Shown piece by piece: positions 6,553 to 61,144 of a stretch of DNA of 64,000 nt. Within the stretch, counting starts at the first letter, position 1. Each line of letters opens with the position of its first letter. Origin of the DNA: Casimicrobium huifangae (GTDB lineage: Bacteria; Pseudomonadota; Gammaproteobacteria; Burkholderiales; Casimicrobiaceae). Location of the stretch: positions 4,324,436 to 4,388,435 of the forward strand of contig NZ_CP041352.1 of NCBI RefSeq assembly GCF_009746125.1, in the 5' to 3' direction. Below the pieces are notes generated by a model that was given only the letters and a program-made list of their open reading frames with translations, made no database searches and was not told the origin of the DNA. The position numbers and the translations under genes were made by a program.

Positions 6553-6562
6553 CGCGTCGCTT

Positions 6563-6679
6563 CAGCTTTTTTGTGAAAGCCGCGTTCGCGTTGGGCTAAC
6601 TGGGGGTTTTTCAAGAAATCGACTTGGCGCCAAAATTGGCGTCGTGCCGCTTATGGCCGCCGATTCAGCAGAAAGCTAC
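6563..6679. repeat. 117-bp dyad element, copy E
   Basis: This element fills the gap between convergent purC and the glycosyltransferase gene. The left end CAGCTTTTTTGTGAAAGCC mirrors the right end TTCAGCAGAAAGCT. The central ATCGACTT (around 6620) lies at the midpoint. Left-arm GCC...GGGC and right-arm GCC/GGC segments can pair internally. The stop codon of the downstream minus-strand gene (6676-6678) lies inside its right end. See copies at 14247, 34618, 42769, 56988 and 60896. Confidence 0.75.
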
Positions 6680-14160: not shown

Positions 14161-14246
14161 ATTCTGCCTGAAAGTTTGGCGAGATTGCACGAAAAATCGA
14201 TAGAAAGGTGGCTCTAGTGGCCTGTCTGCGCTGCCGTTGAGACAAG

Positions 14247-14363
14247 CAGCTTTTTGATGAAATGGCGTCGGTACAGGGCAAAGAAGGGAGAAACGCTGGA
14301 AACCGACTTTTTGCATTTCCGGTTGCTGAGCCCAGATGGAATGCGGGTTTTACTGAATAGTTG
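14247..14363. repeat. 117-bp dyad element, copy F
   Basis: Located in the divergent spacer between the TetR operon and the histidine phosphatase gene. The left end CAGCTTTTTGATGAAA is close to consensus. The right end (GCGGGTTTTACTGAATAGTTG region) is degenerate. GAGCCCAGATGGAATGCGGG forms the right hairpin region. The core ACCGACTT (around 14304) sits at the exact midpoint. This is the most decayed copy apart from 42769. ATGs inside it (such as 14254) are not used as starts. Confidence 0.62.
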
Positions 14364-14448
14364 CCTCCGTATGCCCGGCCGAAATTTGTGGAGCCATCGG
14401 CTCCATGCGGGTGCCACAATGCGGCGTTCAGTCTGTCGTGGAGCGCCC

Positions 14449-18724: not shown

Positions 18725-18801
18725 TGGTGGCGCTTCAGGGACTCGAACCCCGGACCTGTGGATTATGATTCCATCGCTCTAACCGACTGAGCTAAAGCGC
18801 C
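18725..18801 (-). tRNA. tRNA with anticodon CAT, probably elongator tRNA-Met
   Basis: A 77-nt cloverleaf with encoded CCA. The acceptor GGCGCTT pairs perfectly with AAGCGCC. The D arm is GCTC...GAGC, the anticodon loop ATCATAA gives CAT, and the T arm has GTTCGAGTC. In the anticodon stem the outermost pair (27-43) is A.C rather than Watson-Crick; the other four pairs are intact. The CAT anticodon could also belong to a tRNA-Ile that is modified by TilS. The overall sequence looks more like the elongator methionine tRNA. It is not an initiator, since the 1-72 pair is formed. Confidence 0.9.
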
Positions 18802-18941: not shown

Positions 18942-21900
18942 TCATTTGCCATGGCCAGCAATGCGCGAACGGATGCGCCTGCCAGCCAGGGTTGCGAGCG
19001 TCGCGAGCATAAGCACCAACAACGCGAGTGCGAGTGGCGACAAGGCCGGAATCACACGTGTATCGGCAACGAAGATAACCGTTGGATTGTTGCTGCCCAC
19101 CTGTCGCGGATCGTTGCTCAAGGCCGACGATTCGTTGCTGCCATTGCCATCGGCATCGAACGCAGCCGTTGCCTGATTGGAGACGGAAGCACCATTCGCG
19201 GCGGGCAGGATCGTCGCAGTGATGGTGATCGTTACCGACCCACCGGCCGGGATGGACCCGTTCCATGTGACCGTATTGGTCGGAACGCTTGCCACCGCTG
19301 TACCGCTGCTGGCAGTTGCGGAAATCAGCGCCAGCGTCGCTGGCAAGACATCGGTCAACTCGTTGCCAGGGTTGTCACCTTGCGGGCCGGGGCCAGCGTT
19401 GCCCAGGATGATCGTGTAAGTGACAGTGCTGCCCACCACAAAAGTACCCGACGCTGTTTTTGTGGCCGTCACTTGGGAACCAACCACGGTGTCGACGTCG
19501 GTGGCCGAGTTGTTGCCTGAGGTCGGGTCCGTGACGCCAGCGGGAGCGGCGACGGTCGCCGTATTGCTTATGTTGCCGATCGCTGTCGCCGACACAGCGC
19601 AAGTGGCGGTGAAGGTGACGCTGGCCCCGGCGGGCACATTGACGCTGCTGGCAATGTTGCCGCTGCCAGATGCAGGGCAGGTGCCGCCACCGGCGCCAAC
19701 GCAAGTCCAGGTGCAGGTAAGGGAAGCCGGGAAGGTGTCACTCACGGTGGCGCCGCTGGCGTTGCTGGGTCCGGCGTTGCTGGCGGTGATCGTGTAAGTC
19801 AGCGATCCGCCCGGTACGGCAGTAGTTACGCTGTCGGTCATGGTGATCGCGAGATCGGCGCTGCCGGCAAGTGCGTCTGTGTCAGTTGCAGCGTTGTTGG
19901 CGGGAGCGGGATCGCTCACACCACCCGGCGCGGCGACGGTTGCCGTGTTGCTCAGCGTGCCCGTGGCTGCTGCCGAAATTGCACAACTTGCCGTGTATGT
20001 CGCGCTGGCGCCAACCGGCAAATTAACGGTGTTGTTGATGTTGCCGGAGCCGTTGGCGGTACAGGTGCCGCCACCAGCGCCGACGCAGGTCCACGTACAG
20101 GTGAGACTTGCCGGGAACGTGTCGGCGACTGTCGCACCGGTCACGTTGCTCGGTCCGGCATTGCTGGCCGTGATCGTGTACGTGACAGAACCGCCAGGTG
20201 TTGCGGTTGTCACCCCATCGGTGATGGTGATTGCCAGATCAGCACTCGCCGACAAGGTATCGGTATCGGTTGCCGAGTTATTGGCGGGAGCGGGGTCGGT
20301 CACGCCGCCAGGGGCGGCGACGGTTGCCGTGTTGCTCAGCGTGCCTGTGGCCGCAGCAGAGATCGCACAGCTTGCTGTGTAGGTGACGCTACCACCGGCC
20401 GGCAGGTTAACAGTGCTGTTGATGTTGCCGGATCCGCTGGGCGTACAGGTGCCGCCACCGGCACCTACGCAAGTCCACGAGCAGGTGAGCGAGGCCGGGA
20501 ACGTATCCACCACCGTTGCACCAGTCGCGTTGCTCGGTCCGGCATTGCTCGCAGTAATGGTGTAAGTCACCGATCCGCCCGGCGTGGCCGTTGTCACTCC
20601 GTCAGTTTTGGTGATCGCCAGATCGGCGCTCGCAGCGAGCGTGTCGGTGTCAGTTGCCGAGTTGTTGCCCGGTGTTGGGTCAGTGACGCCGCCAGGCGCA
20701 GTCACTGTTGCGGTGTTGCTCAGTGTCCCGGTCGCGCTCGCCGAGATCGCGCAACTCGCGGTGTAAGTCACGCTGCCACCCACAGGCAGGTTCACGGTGT
20801 TGCTGATGTTGCCGGAGCCACTTGCAGTGCAAGTCCCTCCACCGGCACCGACACAGGTCCACGTGCACGTGAGGCTTGCCGGGAACGTGTCGGCCACAGT
20901 TGCACCGGGTGCGTTGCTCGGTCCATCGTTGCTCGCAGTGATGGTGTAGGTCACCGATCCGCCCGGCGTGGCCGTTGTCACGCCGTCAGTCACCGTGATC
21001 GCCAGATCAGCGCTGGCAGAGAGCGTGTCTGTATCGGTTGCCGAGTTGTTGCCCGGTGTTGGGTCAGTAACGCCGCCGGGCGCAGTCACTGTTGCGGTGT
21101 TGCTCAGCGTCCCTATCGCGCTCGCCATGATCGCGCAGCTCGCGGTGTAAGTCACGCTGCCACCCGCTGGCAAATTCACCGTGTTGCTGATGTTGCCGGA
21201 GCCGCTGGCGGTGCAGGTGCCACCGCCAGCGCCCACGCAGGTCCAGGTGCAGGTGAGACTCGCCGGGAAAGTATCGGCAACCGTCGCGCCAGTGACTCCG
21301 CTGGGGCCGGCGTTGCTGGCCGTGATGGTGTAGGTCACTGATCCACCCGGCGTTGCCGTCGTCACCCCATCAGTCACCGTGATTGCCAAATCAGCGCTTG
21401 CCGAGAGGGTGTCACTGTCAGTCGCGCTATTGTTTCCCGGTGTCGGGTCGGTGACACCACCAGGTGCAGCGACGGTCGCGGTATTGCTAAGCGTCCCGGT
21501 CGCACTCGCGGAGATAGTGCAGCTCGCCGTATGGGTCACGCTACCACCCGCCGGCAGATTGACTGTATCGCTGATGTTGCCTGAACCGCTGGCCGTGCAA
21601 ATGCCGCCGCCGGCGCCAACGCAGGTCCACGTGCAGGTGAGGCTCGCCGGGAATGTATCAGCGACTGTCGCGCCGGGCGCGTTGCTCGGGCCGGCGTTGC
21701 TGGCAGTGATGGTGTACGTGACCGAGCCGCCTGGCGTCGCAGTCGTCACGCCGTCCGTCTTGGTGATCGACAAATCGGCCTGCGGCGTCAGCGTGTCAGT
21801 ATCCGTCGCGCTGTTGTTCGCCGCATTGGGATCGCCGGCAATGGTGACGGTCGCGGTATTGCTCAACGTGCCAGTCGCGGCGGCAGAGATTGCACAAGCC

Positions 21901-24179
21901 GCGGTATAGGTGGTGCTGGCACCCGCTGGCAAATTGACGGTGTCGCTGATGTTGCCGGCGCCGCTGGCCGTGCAGGTGCCGCCGCCAGCGCCGACGCATG
22001 TCCAGGTACACGTCAGAACAGCCGGGAACGTATCCGCCACTGTAGCGCCAGTGGCTGCGACCGACGAAGCGTTGGACGCGGTGATGGTGTAGGTGACAGA
22101 TCCACCCGGCGTCGCCGTCGTGACGCCGTCTGTGACGGTGATGCCGAGATCAGCGGCTTGAACGCTAATGCAGCCGTTGGCCGTCACGCTTTGTCCATCG
22201 GGATTGGTGATCGTGACATTTTGCAAACCGGAGGCCAGCGCTGTGATGTTGAGCGTGACTTGGGTCGGTGAGTTGTAGGTGACGCTGTTGACGGTCGCGT
22301 TGGTGACCGTTGCACTGATGTGACTAAACGGCAATGCGGGTGGGGGCAAATTGGCGCCCGGATCGTAAAAACCGGAGCCTGCTGTCGATGTGGCATTGAT
22401 GACAACATTGCCGGTCGGACCGGTGAAAGTGATCGGACTGCCCGAGCAGGTCGGCGTCGCTGGTGGCCGTGAAAGCAGCTTGCCAACGCGGACTGCGTAG
22501 CTGTTCAACGCCTGGTTGTACTCCTGCACGGTGTAGATCGTCATGTCGTCAATCGGATCAACGACGGTGTAGGAGTAGTCACCCCAGCGGCGGCCGGAGC
22601 CGCCACCGGGATCCGCAGCCGGGTTGTAGTTGGACGTGGTGGTGCCAAAAGTGGTCGCTGCGGTGGTGGGCGGTGCGTCCATGGTGCCGAGCGTGTCACC
22701 GGCGAGGCGGCTGGCGTAGGCAGGGGTGGCCCCCACAACGCCCGCCATGCTGAAACCGACAACCGCATGGCCCTGTCCGCTAGCCGCAATTGACGGAATC
22801 CAGTATTGCCTGGCTGCCGCACGTGTGGCAGCGTTGTCGAACACAGTCCCGGACTGAACGAGGGTCGGCGTAGTGGTCAGGTTCTGCACCTCATACCAGC
22901 GGACAGCGTTGCGAGCCGCGGCTGCGGTGCTGGCGACGCCCGCAGCACTAACGCGAAAATTGTGCGCGGTCCACAAGCGCCCATTGCGAATCATCGCAGC
23001 GTACAGGCGGTCATCCAGGCTATCGAGATTGCCATTCGCGCCGCCAGTATTGCCGGCATGTTCTACACGGTTCGGAAACGTGGTGGTCGGCACCGTCATG
23101 CTGATGTTGGCAGAGATGGTGGGCGTGGCCGATCCGGGATTGCTGATCCGACGGAACATCAGGGTGCTGAACGTGGCGTTGTCAGGGCCGACGAAGTACC
23201 CTTCCGTGGCTGTGGCGTCGTAATTGTCGACACCCCTTGGTGCAAATGGCCCGGAGCCCGCACCACCCGACACCATATTCGCAAACATGGTCACTGTGAT
23301 AGGCCCGGCACCGAGAATCGATGACTTGCGAATGACGTAGCCGTTCGTGCCCTGGAAGGAGCCGGCATTGCTGAACATATTGCAGCCGACGTAGAGCGCG
23401 TTGACATCAACGCCCAGTGAAGGGTAGTCACAGAAATTGGTGCCGGGATCCGGATCGGCCTGAAACTGAAAGAACGACCAGATCGTGCTGCCGGAAATGG
23501 TGCCATTGTTGCTGACTGCAAGCAGCCAGCGGTTGGGCGCCGTGGTCGTACAGGTAGCGTTGGTGCACGGGATGTCGATGATGCTGATGTACCACCGCCC
23601 CGTAAAGCGGTCGTAGCGTATCTGTGGGTCGCTGGTGAAGTTGAGAACCACGGCGCCCGCGACCGGCGTCATGACCGACGCAAAGAACACGTTCGGATCG
23701 ACGTCGAGAACGCTGTCGGCAACGCCTGCCTTGGTGAACGATCGGATGCGACCATTGGTTGCCGCGATGAACTGCGTCGGGCCGACCGTCCCCATTGAGT
23801 CGGGCGGGAAGTTGCCTGTATCAGAAAGCGTCACTGCATCGAACGAGAGGCCGGTCGTATGCGATGCCTTCCTTACGTCGGACGCCTTGGGAATATCGCC
23901 GCCCGATATCCCCGAGGTTGCAGGCGCGGCAGGATTGTCCGGCAATTGGCTGCGATCTGGGTATTGCAGCCGGAGTACGGGCCTTGGTCCGGCGGGTGGG
24001 GTCACCGCAGCGCGTGCCATGATGCTGGCAGTGGTCTCAACCTGGCCTTTGCTGCCGGCGAGCGCCAAGCCAGGCGCATCAGCCGCAAACGCGGTTTCAC
24101 ACATCGCAGTAGCGGCTACACAGCAAACACTGACAATGATGCGAACGAAACTGCCGCACCGCTCAACAACGCGATTCAT
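18942..24179 (-). CDS. Large exported DUF11-repeat surface protein with IPTL-CTERM-like tail
   Basis: A protein of 1745 aa from the ATG at 24179, giving a signal peptide (MNRVVERCGSFVRIIVSVCC region, cut after AFA). Residues to about 620 form a unique domain with DSMGTVGPTQFIAATNG and WYISIIDIP, possibly a beta-propeller. Seven near-identical DUF11 (Ig-like) modules follow from about 675 to 1567, each with four cysteines in CTWTCVGAGGGTC and ASCAIS. Then comes one diverged DUF11 module. The end is PALSPLALALLVLMLATLAT plus an Arg-rich cluster, resembling the IPTL-CTERM sorting signal of betaproteobacteria (usual motif IPTLSEWG). It is probably surface-anchored or secreted for adhesion or as a matrix. 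The longer frame to 24311 lacks a signal and is rejected. Confidence 0.88.
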   Translation of the reverse strand: MNRVVERCGSFVRIIVSVCCVAATAMCETAFAADAPGLALAGSKGQVETTASIMARAAVTPPAGPRPVLRLQYPDRSQLPDNPAAPATSGISGGDIPKASDVRKASHTTGLSFDAVTLSDTGNFPPDSMGTVGPTQFIAATNGRIRSFTKAGVADSVLDVDPNVFFASVMTPVAGAVVLNFTSDPQIRYDRFTGRWYISIIDIPCTNATCTTTAPNRWLLAVSNNGTISGSTIWSFFQFQADPDPGTNFCDYPSLGVDVNALYVGCNMFSNAGSFQGTNGYVIRKSSILGAGPITVTMFANMVSGGAGSGPFAPRGVDNYDATATEGYFVGPDNATFSTLMFRRISNPGSATPTISANISMTVPTTTFPNRVEHAGNTGGANGNLDSLDDRLYAAMIRNGRLWTAHNFRVSAAGVASTAAAARNAVRWYEVQNLTTTPTLVQSGTVFDNAATRAAARQYWIPSIAASGQGHAVVGFSMAGVVGATPAYASRLAGDTLGTMDAPPTTAATTFGTTTSNYNPAADPGGGSGRRWGDYSYTVVDPIDDMTIYTVQEYNQALNSYAVRVGKLLSRPPATPTCSGSPITFTGPTGNVVINATSTAGSGFYDPGANLPPPALPFSHISATVTNATVNSVTYNSPTQVTLNITALASGLQNVTITNPDGQSVTANGCISVQAADLGITVTDGVTTATPGGSVTYTITASNASSVAATGATVADTFPAVLTCTWTCVGAGGGTCTASGAGNISDTVNLPAGASTTYTAACAISAAATGTLSNTATVTIAGDPNAANNSATDTDTLTPQADLSITKTDGVTTATPGGSVTYTITASNAGPSNAPGATVADTFPASLTCTWTCVGAGGGICTASGSGNISDTVNLPAGGSVTHTASCTISASATGTLSNTATVAAPGGVTDPTPGNNSATDSDTLSASADLAITVTDGVTTATPGGSVTYTITASNAGPSGVTGATVADTFPASLTCTWTCVGAGGGTCTASGSGNISNTVNLPAGGSVTYTASCAIMASAIGTLSNTATVTAPGGVTDPTPGNNSATDTDTLSASADLAITVTDGVTTATPGGSVTYTITASNDGPSNAPGATVADTFPASLTCTWTCVGAGGGTCTASGSGNISNTVNLPVGGSVTYTASCAISASATGTLSNTATVTAPGGVTDPTPGNNSATDTDTLAASADLAITKTDGVTTATPGGSVTYTITASNAGPSNATGATVVDTFPASLTCSWTCVGAGGGTCTPSGSGNINSTVNLPAGGSVTYTASCAISAAATGTLSNTATVAAPGGVTDPAPANNSATDTDTLSASADLAITITDGVTTATPGGSVTYTITASNAGPSNVTGATVADTFPASLTCTWTCVGAGGGTCTANGSGNINNTVNLPVGASATYTASCAISAAATGTLSNTATVAAPGGVSDPAPANNAATDTDALAGSADLAITMTDSVTTAVPGGSLTYTITASNAGPSNASGATVSDTFPASLTCTWTCVGAGGGTCPASGSGNIASSVNVPAGASVTFTATCAVSATAIGNISNTATVAAPAGVTDPTSGNNSATDVDTVVGSQVTATKTASGTFVVGSTVTYTIILGNAGPGPQGDNPGNELTDVLPATLALISATASSGTAVASVPTNTVTWNGSIPAGGSVTITITATILPAANGASVSNQATAAFDADGNGSNESSALSNDPRQVGSNNPTVIFVADTRVIPALSPLALALLVLMLATLATLAGRRIRSRIAGHGK
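19479..22154 (-). repeat. Seven tandem DUF11-encoding repeats, mostly 384 bp
   Basis: Units start on the minus strand at 22154 (375 bp), 21779, 21395, 21011, 20627, 20243 (five units of exactly 384 bp) and 19859 (381 bp, to 19479). Each encodes ADL-IT-TDGVTTATPGGSVT plus the rest of the module. The units remain very similar at DNA level, including long identical stretches, which indicates recent expansion or ongoing homogenisation. Copy number is likely to vary between strains and to be assembly-sensitive. Confidence 0.9.
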
Positions 24180-24341
24180 GGAGGCCCCCGGAGAAATTGA
24201 GCGTGCCGCGACTGCAGCGCGCACTAGGCTATTTACGAATGAGATTTTGGCACCGCACGCTGGAGAACGCCGACGCAGTTTCATTGCGACAACGACATCA
24301 GTGGGCATCATGCCAATGTCTTGAATTTCCCGCTCGCTGTG

Positions 24342-34595: not shown

Positions 34596-34617
34596 CAAGC
34601 GGCACAGCACAGGCAAC

Positions 34618-34734
34618 ATCTTTCTGGCGAAACGCCCATTTAATCTGGGCGCGTAGCCAGAAACAATCATAAGTCGATAATTAGCTTTTTAGGCGCTACG
34701 CCCACAGCGAATGGGGGTTACAGCAAAAAAGCTG
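34618..34734. repeat. 117-bp dyad element, copy A
   Basis: One of the two clearest copies. The left arm has GCGAAACGCCC...CTGGGCG, the core ATAAGTCGATAA is centred at 34675.5, and the right arm has GCCCACAGCGAATGGGGGTT ending CAGCAAAAAAGCTG. The midpoint of the element (34676) coincides with the core. It fills the space between the atp promoter region and the stop codon (34736-34738) of the exporter ATPase gene, both on the minus strand. Confidence 0.8.
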
Positions 34735-34735
34735 C

Positions 34736-42768: not shown

Positions 42769-42885
42769 CATCAACTTTTCGCCGAAAGCCCATCTACGTT
42801 GGGCTTGGCGGCCGAAAGTCACGCAAGTCGACTTTGCCAAAAATGTGCCGTCAAGCCCCATGTAGATCCGGCTTAGCACATATTG
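42769..42885. repeat. 117-bp dyad element, copy C
   Basis: Lies between convergent hydrolase and gatB genes and ends exactly at the base before the gatB stop codon. The left end is CATCAACTTTTCGCCGAAA, and its hairpin is AAGCCCATCTACGTTGGGCTT without the last base (42786-42806 region). The core CAAGTCGACTTTG is the most symmetrical of all copies (AAGTCGACTT, centred at 42829.5). The right arm is AAGCCCCATGTAGATCCGGC; the right end has decayed. Confidence 0.72.
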
Positions 42886-44331
42886 TTATATGCCGCTGCC
42901 AAGTTTCTTGCGCACGATCTCGTTGACCTGTGCCGGGTTCGCCTTGCCCTGGCTCGCCTTCATGACCATGCCGACGATGCTCATGAGTGCCTTTTCCTTG
43001 CCGGCCTTGAAGTCGGCAATCTGTGCGGCGCTTTTCGCCAGCACCTCATCGACGATTTTTTCGATGGCGCCGCTGTCGCTGATTTGGCGCAGGCCCTTCG
43101 CGTCGATGATGGCATCAACACTCGCTCCGTCACCTGACCACAGCGCCTCGAACACTGTCTTGGCTATCTTGTGGCTGATGGTTCCGTCGCTGATGCGGGC
43201 GACAAGGTTCGACAGACGCACGGCGTTAACCGGCGACTGCTCAATGGTCTTCTCTTCACGATTCAACGCAGCCGCAACCTCGCCAAGCATCCAGTTGGCC
43301 ACCAGCTTGGCATCCGCGCCGGCCTTGACCGCAGTCTCGAAGAAACTGGCGGTCGCACCGTCCTGTGAAAGCAGCGTCGCGTCGTATTTCGACAGGCCGT
43401 ACTCGCGGATGAAGCGATCGCACTTGGCCGCGGGCAGCTCGGGCAGCGCGGCCTTGATGCGCGCGAGGTCCTCGTCGCTGACGACCAGTGGCGGCAGGTC
43501 GGGGTCAGGGAAGTAGCGATAGTCCATCGCGTCTTCCTTGGTGCGCATCGCGCGCGTCTCGCCGGTGTCCGGGTTGAACAGCACCGTGGCCTGCACGATC
43601 TTCTTGCCGTCCTCGATCTGCTCGATCTGCCAACGCACCTCGTAGTCGATGGCCTGCTGCATGAACTTGAAGCTGTTCAGGTTCTTGATTTCGCGGCGGG
43701 TGCCGAACTCCTGCTGGCCGATCGGGCGCACCGAGACGTTGACGTCGCACCGGAACGAGCCTTCCTGCATGTTGCCGTCGCAGATGTCGAGATAGCGCAC
43801 GAGGTTGTGCAGCGTGCGCGCGTAGGCGATCGCCTCTTTGGCCGAGCGCATCACCGGCTCGGTCACGATCTCGAGCAGCGGCGTACCGGCGCGGTTGAGG
43901 TCAACCCCGGACTGGCCGTCGAACAAATCATGCACGCTCTTGCCGGCGTCTTCCTCGAGGTGGGCGCGGGTGAGCTCGATGAACTTGGTAGCGCCGTCGT
44001 CGAGCGTGATGGTGAGGCCACCGCCCTGCACGATCGGCGTCTCGAATTGCGAGATCTGATAGCCCTTCGGCAGGTCAGGGTAGAAGTAATTCTTGCGCGC
44101 CATGATCGAGCGCTGATTGATCTTCGCGCCGATGGCGAGGCCGAACTTCACAGCGCGCTCGACAGCACCACGGTTCATGACCGGCAAGGCGCCGGGCATG
44201 GCGAGGCCTACGACTCCAACCTGGGTGTTCGGCGCCGCACCAAAGGCGGTGCTGCAACCACAAAAAATCTTCGACGCCGTGGTCAACTGCACGTGCGTTT
44301 CAAGACCGATGACGATTTCCCACTGTGCCAT
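42886..44331 (-). CDS. gatB: Asp-tRNA(Asn)/Glu-tRNA(Gln) amidotransferase subunit B
   Basis: Subunit B (481 aa) of the GatCAB enzyme that converts misacylated Glu-tRNA(Gln) and Asp-tRNA(Asn) to the amidated forms using glutamine. [13 protein letters not shown] is the signature start, then the zinc-type pair C..C in [10 protein letters not shown] and the segment [20 protein letters not shown]. The C-terminal YqeY-like domain ends in KKLGSGI. Phosphorylation of the tRNA-bound acid occurs in this subunit. The start MAQWEIVIG is preferred over the longer frame, which overlaps gatA. It lies 8 bp after gatA. Confidence 0.96.
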
Positions 44332-56959: not shown

Positions 56960-56987
56960 TGGCGGTCACGGCGCGCTGGACCGTTAA

Positions 56988-57104
56988 CGACTTTTTACCA
57001 AGAACCGCATTTGAATTGGGCTCAATGCAGTAAACGCGCGTAAGTCGACATGAGGCGCTTTTACGCCTCCGGCCCAGACTAAATGGACTTTTCAGCGAAA
57101 AGCC
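56988..57104. repeat. 117-bp dyad element, copy D
   Basis: Lies between convergent mutY and the OmpA-like lipoprotein gene. The left end is CGACTTTTTACCAAGAA. The core TAAGTCGACA is centred at 57046.5, against the element midpoint of 57046. The right arm GGCCCAGACTAAATGGAC ends TTTTCAGCGAAAAGCC. A local GAGGCG/CGCCTC hairpin lies right of centre. The rest of the spacer is unremarkable. Confidence 0.75.
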
Positions 57105-57132
57105 ATTGATCCCGAACGAGACGCAGGCGCCG

Positions 57133-60895: not shown

Positions 60896-61015
60896 CATCA
60901 GCTTTTTGCTCAAAGCCCTGTTACAAAAGGGCTGATATGTATTTTTGGCTGATAGTCGATAAACAGTGTTTTGCGGTGTCTAGCCCTGTTTGGATAGGGG
61001 TTTCAGCAAAAAGAT
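60896..61015. repeat. ~120-bp dyad element, copy B
   Basis: Among the best preserved. The left end is CATCAGCTTTTTGCTCAAAG, with a perfect hairpin AGCCCT/AGGGCT (60914-60933). The core ATAGTCGATAA is centred at 60957.5. The right arm has TAGCCCTGTTTGGATAGGGG, ending TTTCAGCAAAAAGATG. It lies in the 330-bp divergent spacer between the DUF2809 gene and the YeeE-like transporter. The remaining 130 bp before the transporter shows no clear promoter. Confidence 0.8.
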
Positions 61016-61144
61016 GTTCTGATTCTGCTGCCGTATTGGGCACTGCAGAGTGCGATTCCGGCAGACGTTCACTTTCGCAGGCAACTGCAGTCCGCCGATA
61101 ATGTCGTCCGCCCCTGCTTTCTGCGCCCCGCGAGCCTGCCTGCC

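Follow-up and report, generated by a model that had tools for sequence, protein, structure and literature searches.

Correia/NEMIS and RUP elements are MITEs of fixed length, found between genes and with inverted ends, while matS (read by MatP), parS (read by ParB) and KOPS are dispersed dyad or oriented sites of about 8–16 bp that proteins read as DNA. The ERIC or IRU repeats of enterobacteria are reported as 127-bp intergenic units (PMC2759123), and REP and REPIN palindromes are reported to carry a GTAG or CGTC tag at one end (PMC3733652). The family described here, from Casimicrobium huifangae, belongs broadly among such dispersed palindromic intergenic repeats, and fails the features of REP/REPIN sequences and of recently active MITEs that were tested. 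It resembles ERIC/IRU in length, in being near-palindromic and intergenic and in its many copies, a likeness of size and plan only; it differs in that its copies are about 54% alike, evenly spaced and kept in place, with a box that changes between species. With REP, BIME and REPIN sequences it shares short dyads in inverted pairs, a location downstream of genes and hundreds of copies; it differs from them in its single fixed 121-bp architecture and in lacking a GTAG or CGTC tag, an associated RAYT and, in this genome, near-identical copies. Its centre is as conserved as its ends and no active copies were seen, unlike Correia/NEMIS and RUP. From matS, parS and KOPS it is set apart by its 121 bp, its several hundred copies, their even spacing of about 11 kb and a species-specific sequence. 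In the part of the literature that our search covered, we recognised no description of this element or of such even spacing, nor of recognition boxes being rewritten between species of one genus.

A first-pass annotation of the window, i.e., the whole 64-kb stretch of DNA analysed, had reported six such elements in spacers between genes, and all six were located where it had placed them. Our profile model, R1, is a sequence-only model trained on 29 copies, the six of the window (that at 60896 is entry L001 of the training set) and 23 from elsewhere in the genome. In the window, R1 matches all six on the + strand with E-values of 1.6e-16 or better and finds zero further copies. Each is matched on the − strand as well (4.3e-12 or better), as expected, since the element is a dyad. 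Copy 1 (6562–6677, + strand, 62.3 bits with R1) has a SAICAR-synthetase gene on one side and, on the other, a convergent gene for a glycosyltransferase-41-domain protein (this and the following gene assignments are from Pfam), and the same spacer of the nearest species, G011, holds an element of 28.6 bits. Copy 2 (14246–14364, +, 58.6 bits) adjoins a gene for a TetR-family regulator and also has its counterpart in the same G011 spacer. At copy 3 (34615–34735, +, 64.1 bits), between ATP-synthase-I-like and ABC-transporter genes that are both on the − strand, a blastn match to G011 (89%) runs across, with the element proper 65% identical; the element is present in G001 too. Copy 4 (42769–42888, +) scores 56.1 bits over 42770–42881 and was extended in alignment A2. 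It is flanked by convergent dienelactone-hydrolase-like and gatB-like genes, and the same spacer contains elements in G011 and G013, a weak one in G001 (24 bits) and a variant in G012. In the G012 spacer 3' of the gatB-like gene (L138), a terminator-like AACGGCGCCCCGGCGCCGTTTTTTT is found near the variant element, the two coexisting. Copy 5 (56986–57106, +, 64.7 bits), between convergent HhH-GPD/NUDIX (MutY-like) and OmpA-domain genes, has same-spacer elements in G011 and G015 and a partial match in G013. Copy 6 (60896–61018, +), the best match of the window with 80.2 bits, is upstream of a sulphur-transport gene; G011 has no intact element at the equivalent place, where one arm-like remnant is visible by eye.

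The first-pass annotation had also proposed a profile search of the genome and its relatives, and this did reveal further copies; the family amounts to about 355–400 copies per genome. A census of 40 evenly placed 20-kb samples and the window, 864 kb in all, gave 78 distinct copies, 71 of them full, or by density around 400 per genome. The strict pattern CTTTTN{48,51}TCGAN{48,51}AAAAG has 123 matches in the genome and none when reversed; with 27 of the 78 sampled copies carrying it, the estimate is about 355 copies. The looser pattern CTTTN{49,52}TCGAN{49,52}AAAG, carried by 42 of the 78, matches 195 times and three times when reversed, leading to an estimate of 357 after subtraction of the control. 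In the genus, R1 matches with E ≤ 0.01 are present in 15 of the 16 other genomes, all except G016, and in none of the 23 genomes searched that share the family or order but not the genus. Counts with the looser pattern are 143–254 in each of G001, G003, G005, G007, G011, G012 and G015, 136 in G013 and 69 in G004; the controls of these genomes are 0–6. In G002, G006, G008, G009, G010, G014 and G016 they are 4–16 versus controls of 1–15, with G002 below its control (9 versus 15); these seven low counts reflect a shifted consensus, as seen for G006 and G010, or few copies. Among 300 genomes of the order, six of them of the genus, the strict pattern exceeded three matches only in the source genome (123) and in G008 (5), with controls reaching 4. 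A 20-base pattern of the element matched six times in named genomes, in unrelated taxa, which we take as chance.

Merging of overlapping and opposite-strand hits reduced 274 hits to 105 distinct copies, of which the 98 full ones were aligned by anchoring on the core. The element is about 121 bp long and is made up of two inverted arms of about 60 bp around a TCGA core, the four letters of which are each present in 94–99% of the 98 copies, a figure favoured by the anchoring. The terminal inverted repeats described in the first-pass annotation are borne out: the arms are symmetric, conservation stops sharply at about ±61 and the length is near-fixed. From the outside inwards, the arm contains a T-tract (TTTT at −55 to −52), an A-tract (−46 to −44), a GGGC box at −29 to −26 that is near-invariant in this species, a step at −14 and −13 that is almost exclusively A or T in about equal frequency, and a core half (AAGTC), the core as a whole reading AAAGTC|GACTTT. 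Information per column varies from about 0 to 1.9 bits, with blocks of 1–1.9 bits beside columns near 0; 42 of 120 columns reach at least 0.8 bit, and the centre is conserved as strongly as the ends. Pairwise identity of the 98 copies averages 54%, with a maximum of 69%, and the elements have a lower GC content than their flanks. IHF-like sites at the ends were considered: at one offset, 23 of 196 arms matched with no more than one mismatch, and the total was 36 versus 12 in shuffles. They leave the family unexplained. Adjoining one element (L024, about 1545–1610) is a separate inverted motif, TTTGGTTTTAATACCAAATGTCA..TGACATTTGGTACGATTACCAAA, which looks operator-like by eye.

Each arm had also been thought to hold a GCCC/GGGC hairpin. 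The inner GGGC of the left arm is indeed almost invariant, with 1.9 bits at two positions, but the outer half is degenerate (0.1–0.8 bit) and the two halves do not covary in register. As to pairing overall, the fraction of paired cells in the 29 copies is 60.5%, identical to the shuffled value of 60.5% (256 of 500 shuffles pair equally well), and pairing over the full dyad in the 98 copies is 48.3% versus 47.4%, with 92 of 1000 permutations as high. Residual signals are present at dyad positions 6–25 (z 2.2, 15 of 1000 permutations), at the variable positions (z 2.0, 24 of 1000), in an off-register test (z 4.3 for the left arm, 0 of 300, and z 2.1 for the right) and in a local-dyad test of G006 (z 2.7). 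Within a copy, the two arms moreover resemble each other 1–3% more than permuted arms do, in each of four species (z 1.44, 2.25, 1.68 and 1.86), in a comparison leaving out 2 of 23 G013 and 4 of 16 G006 copies that were duplicates or had an unclear core. These signals probably reflect local base composition, with room for a small pairing constraint. The dyad is a property of the DNA sequence, and base pairing is not its main constraint. Covariation across the centre of AAA/TTT tracts at ±13/14 was considered and rejected, the combinations being TT/TT in 25, AA/TT in 23, TT/AA in 16 and AA/AA in 9 of the 98 copies.

With genes called by a simple custom caller, and copies placed by their midpoint with a 30-bp tolerance, 75 of the 78 census copies could be placed (three are at sample edges) and none has its midpoint inside a gene. 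Tandem spacers hold 39, convergent spacers 22 and divergent spacers 14, and copies lie closer to gene 3' ends (median 26 bp) than to 5' ends (median 110 bp). When spacers shorter than 100 bp (element included) are set aside, occupancy is 22 of 55 for convergent, 38 of 209 for tandem and 14 of 94 for divergent spacers; in the 40 samples, with the element length subtracted, there are 19 copies for 96 convergent, 12 for 101 divergent and 38 for 465 tandem spacers.

A contiguous stretch of 201 kb contains 18 copies, 13 with a flank that can be aligned to G011 and five without. For 11 of the 13, G011 has an element in the same spacer, orthology being assigned by position alone and three of the 11 pairs being anchored on one flank. 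At one of the other two an arm-like remnant is visible by eye, at the other synteny ends, and neither is a clean empty site. Comparisons with fewer sites gave 1 of 3 in G015, 1 of 2 in G013 with a partial match at the other, and 2 of 3 in G001, one of them weak. In the G011 comparison, columns above 1.2 bits are 89.5% identical in orthologues versus 89.1% in non-orthologues, columns below 0.25 bit 31.5% versus 29.3%, and fourfold sites 65%; flank identity is 22–38% on the left, i.e., near-random, and 41–49% on the right, which is partly coding. The position and some 40 columns thus appear to be under selection, since 11 of 13 copies recur despite randomised variable columns and largely randomised flanks, and purifying selection on the DNA pattern at each place is the simplest reading. 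Repeated insertion into preferred spacers is a possible source of shared positions, but recurrence at 11 of 13 exceeds the occupancy of convergent spacers (22 of 55). Change may instead be faster inside the element than outside: orthologues differ as paralogues do at the low-information columns while fourfold sites are 65% identical, and the right flanks are better kept than the variable columns. We set such hypermutation aside because the adjoining DNA is likewise near-random to the left of the elements and, in part, to their right.

Between species, the outer tract, the A/T step and a CG-containing core are kept, and boxes and cores otherwise shift. The arm consensus is CTTTT..TGAAA.CC.CATT.GAA..GGGCTT with core AAAGTC in this species (98 copies), GCTTTTT......A.CGAC....G.A.GG.GGTT with core AAGTC in G012 (17 copies), CTTTTT.C.GAAA.CCGCATCCA.AACGGGCTTGGAG with core AAAGTC in G013 (21 copies) and CTTTTT...T.AA.GCCCAATTTAATTGGGC with core ATTTATC in G006 (12 copies), while G010, inspected by eye, has a TTCGAA-like core and GCC..GGC boxes. 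The box thus reads GGGC in this species, CGAC..GG..GTT in G012 and GCATCC..CGGGC in G013. The 21 G013 copies are closer to each other than those of this genome (mean identity 59%, best 78%), so the family may be younger there.

Along the chromosome, copies follow each other at a mean interval of about 11–12 kb, an evenness that was noticed first and tested afterwards. In the 40 separate 20-kb samples (69 spacer-assigned of 72 copies), the variance-to-mean ratio is 0.39 versus 0.94 ± 0.21 under a spacer-weighted null, in which spacers are drawn according to their class and length (fraction 0.00055). Gaps in the contiguous 201 kb, of which 20 kb are shared with one sample, have a coefficient of variation of 0.50 versus 0.95 for a uniform null (p 0.0012); the G011 stretch gives 0.42 (p 0.0018), but is largely orthologous and hence not independent. 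Short stretches by themselves are not significant (p 0.28 for G015, 0.057 for G001). The first 2.3 Mb contain 100 pattern copies, which have an index of 0.66 in 20-kb bins (p 0.0006) and a gap coefficient of variation of 0.82 (p 0.021), and only one of their 99 gaps is shorter than 3 kb versus 12 expected; the blocks between samples give an index of 0.62 (p 0.0036). On G012 contigs that carry five copies or more, none of 39 gaps is below 3 kb, where 5.1 would be expected (p 0.005); this test used 49 pattern copies among the 50 + positions listed of 176, a match on contig C7 that by eye is not element-like being excluded. Placement on the chromosome is non-random, being under-dispersed in three partly overlapping analyses of this genome and in one of G012. 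Inside a sample, no two of the 71 strong copies are less than 3 kb apart. Two of the seven weak copies, both in L094 (16098–16150 and 17015–17070), have a strong copy at a distance of 2.4 and 3.3 kb, a hint, suggestive only, that redundant close neighbours decay. Alternatively, the spacing could go back to an old, extinct transposon with target immunity, which is the main rival account of it, or to the loss of copies lying close together.

That this evenness merely follows from the positions of intergenic spacers or from sampling is very improbable. Elements do need spacers, with as a rule one per spacer at most, and the genes were called by a simple custom caller, but the null that already accounts for spacer class and length stays at 0.94 where 0.39 is observed, and the effect repeats in other stretches and in G012. 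Nor do we favour an element acting in RNA, as a stabiliser or terminator of convergent transcripts in the form of a 3'-UTR hairpin or cloverleaf, an explanation to which we give a low probability. Copies directly past stop codons and the enrichment in convergent spacers would suit such a role. Single RNA folds of three of the six window copies are clearly better than shuffles (z −3.6, −5.7 and −4.2); the other three are not (z −0.5, 0.4 and −1.5). To the eye, the boxes form local palindromes in G006, in G010 and in many of the G012 copies, as a hairpin model would also predict, and there are the weak residual pairing signals. Against this, pairing equals that of shuffles in the 29 copies and hardly exceeds it in the 98, so that the structured regulatory repeat considered in the first-pass annotation, if taken in the RNA sense, is not supported, covariation of paired columns being negligible. 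Its remark that no described family was recognised holds for RNA families: at gathering score, Rfam finds only a tRNA in the window, and among 14 loci it gives five matches with E ≤ 1, none overlapping an element. Intrinsic terminators are not replaced by the element either; a separate one, called with a crude custom finder, is present at 10 of 76 element-bearing gene ends versus 28 of 373 element-free ends, and identity of the element with an intrinsic terminator was rejected on these counts.

The elements do form a dispersed family of many copies that have internal dyad symmetry. As for the MITE offered as an alternative in the first-pass annotation, there is no support for an active one, since no pair of copies is more than 69% identical and no transposase is tied to them. 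Near-identical, i.e., recent, copies were not found among the 98 of this genome (maximum 69%) or the 21 of G013 (78%), no autonomous partner was seen, no transposase domain was found by Pfam in 10 window proteins near copies, and none was recognised by eye in the proteins near half copies at three loci. Half or degenerate copies include L079:11069–11130 and L083:8152–8212; an autonomous element derived from half copies was considered and does not explain the family. The copies may instead descend from an ancient MITE family, immobile for a long time, with a transposase that recognised the entire 121-bp dyad; target immunity would have left the even spacing, and survival between genes would have left copies past stop codons. 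We regard this as unlikely, yet worth serious weight: sharp ends, near-fixed length, intergenic bias, confinement to one genus among those searched, half copies, the scarcity of gaps below 3 kb and the greater likeness of G013 copies all fit it. Dead copies should, however, decay evenly, yet columns span about 0 to 1.9 bits, and in orthologues the conserved ones are 89.5% identical with low-information columns at the non-orthologue level; a MITE conserved only in its TIRs would not have a centre that matches the ends in conservation, and this genome has neither a pair above 69% nor an autonomous copy that we could see. Mobilisation as a REPIN or BIME-type repeat by a RAYT (IS200/IS605-like Y1) transposase, or a role analogous to a gyrase-binding BIME, is quite improbable. 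The family is high-copy, intergenic and built of an inverted pair of short dyads, and Y1_Tnp matches are present in 15 of 17 genomes of the genus, G016, itself without an R1 match, having none. However, G008 carries elements without a Y1_Tnp match, GTAG or CGTC occurs at no fixed place and in at most 5 of 98 copies, near-identical copies are missing from this genome, and an element flanks just one of 30 Y1_Tnp loci (out of the 44 matches listed, and with the model of this genome's own type applied to all species). This sole case is a partial element in G001 (L207:1264–1341), next to the strongest Y1 match of the genus (131 bits).

The comparisons show that the element is old, is preserved in its sequence and not in base pairs, stays in its spacer, lies mostly close behind gene ends and is spaced with more than random evenness. 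From this we give about an even chance to the reading that it works in cis, as double-stranded DNA, as the site of a putative multimeric protein of drifting specificity, perhaps marking chromosome domains of about 11 kb; the protein, its species-specific recognition and the domain role are inferred. A dedicated multimeric DNA-binding protein with two-fold symmetry would occupy the site, with minor-groove contacts predicted at the A/T-only step and major-groove contacts at the boxes and the core. Its specificity would drift from one species to the next and pull the boxes of many sites along with it. The array of occupied sites would divide the chromosome into domains of about 11 kb, the step of this scheme with the least support, and the sites might serve, for instance, to anchor the chromosome or to block supercoils at places where genes are least disturbed. 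The proposal in full, that an evenly spaced array of several hundred putatively protein-bound dyads sets such domains in one genus, with recognition rewritten in each species alongside a fast-evolving protein, is considerably less probable and is offered tentatively. To our knowledge, whether topological domains of about 10 kb in bacteria have sequence-defined boundaries is an open question; several hundred recognisable sites, about one every 11 kb in conserved spacers, make it directly testable in this genus. If true, the coordinated drift of the sites would be a bacterial case of binding specificity co-evolving with genome-wide targets. Supercoils in E. coli have been reported to diffuse in domains of about 10 kb (PMC3420936); the agreement with our spacing may serve as a lead, not as evidence.

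Two further observations concern other sequences. In the window, a single open reading frame of 1789 amino acids (18942–24311, − strand) adjoins a tRNA gene (18728–18801) and has no long DNA match in G011, where the stretch is about 7 kb longer. In G120, of another genus in the same order, contigs C4, C5 and C15 carry a different dispersed repeat, GGGATTTCTGCGGCATC..GACGTCGAAATCC, a chance find of the strict pattern.
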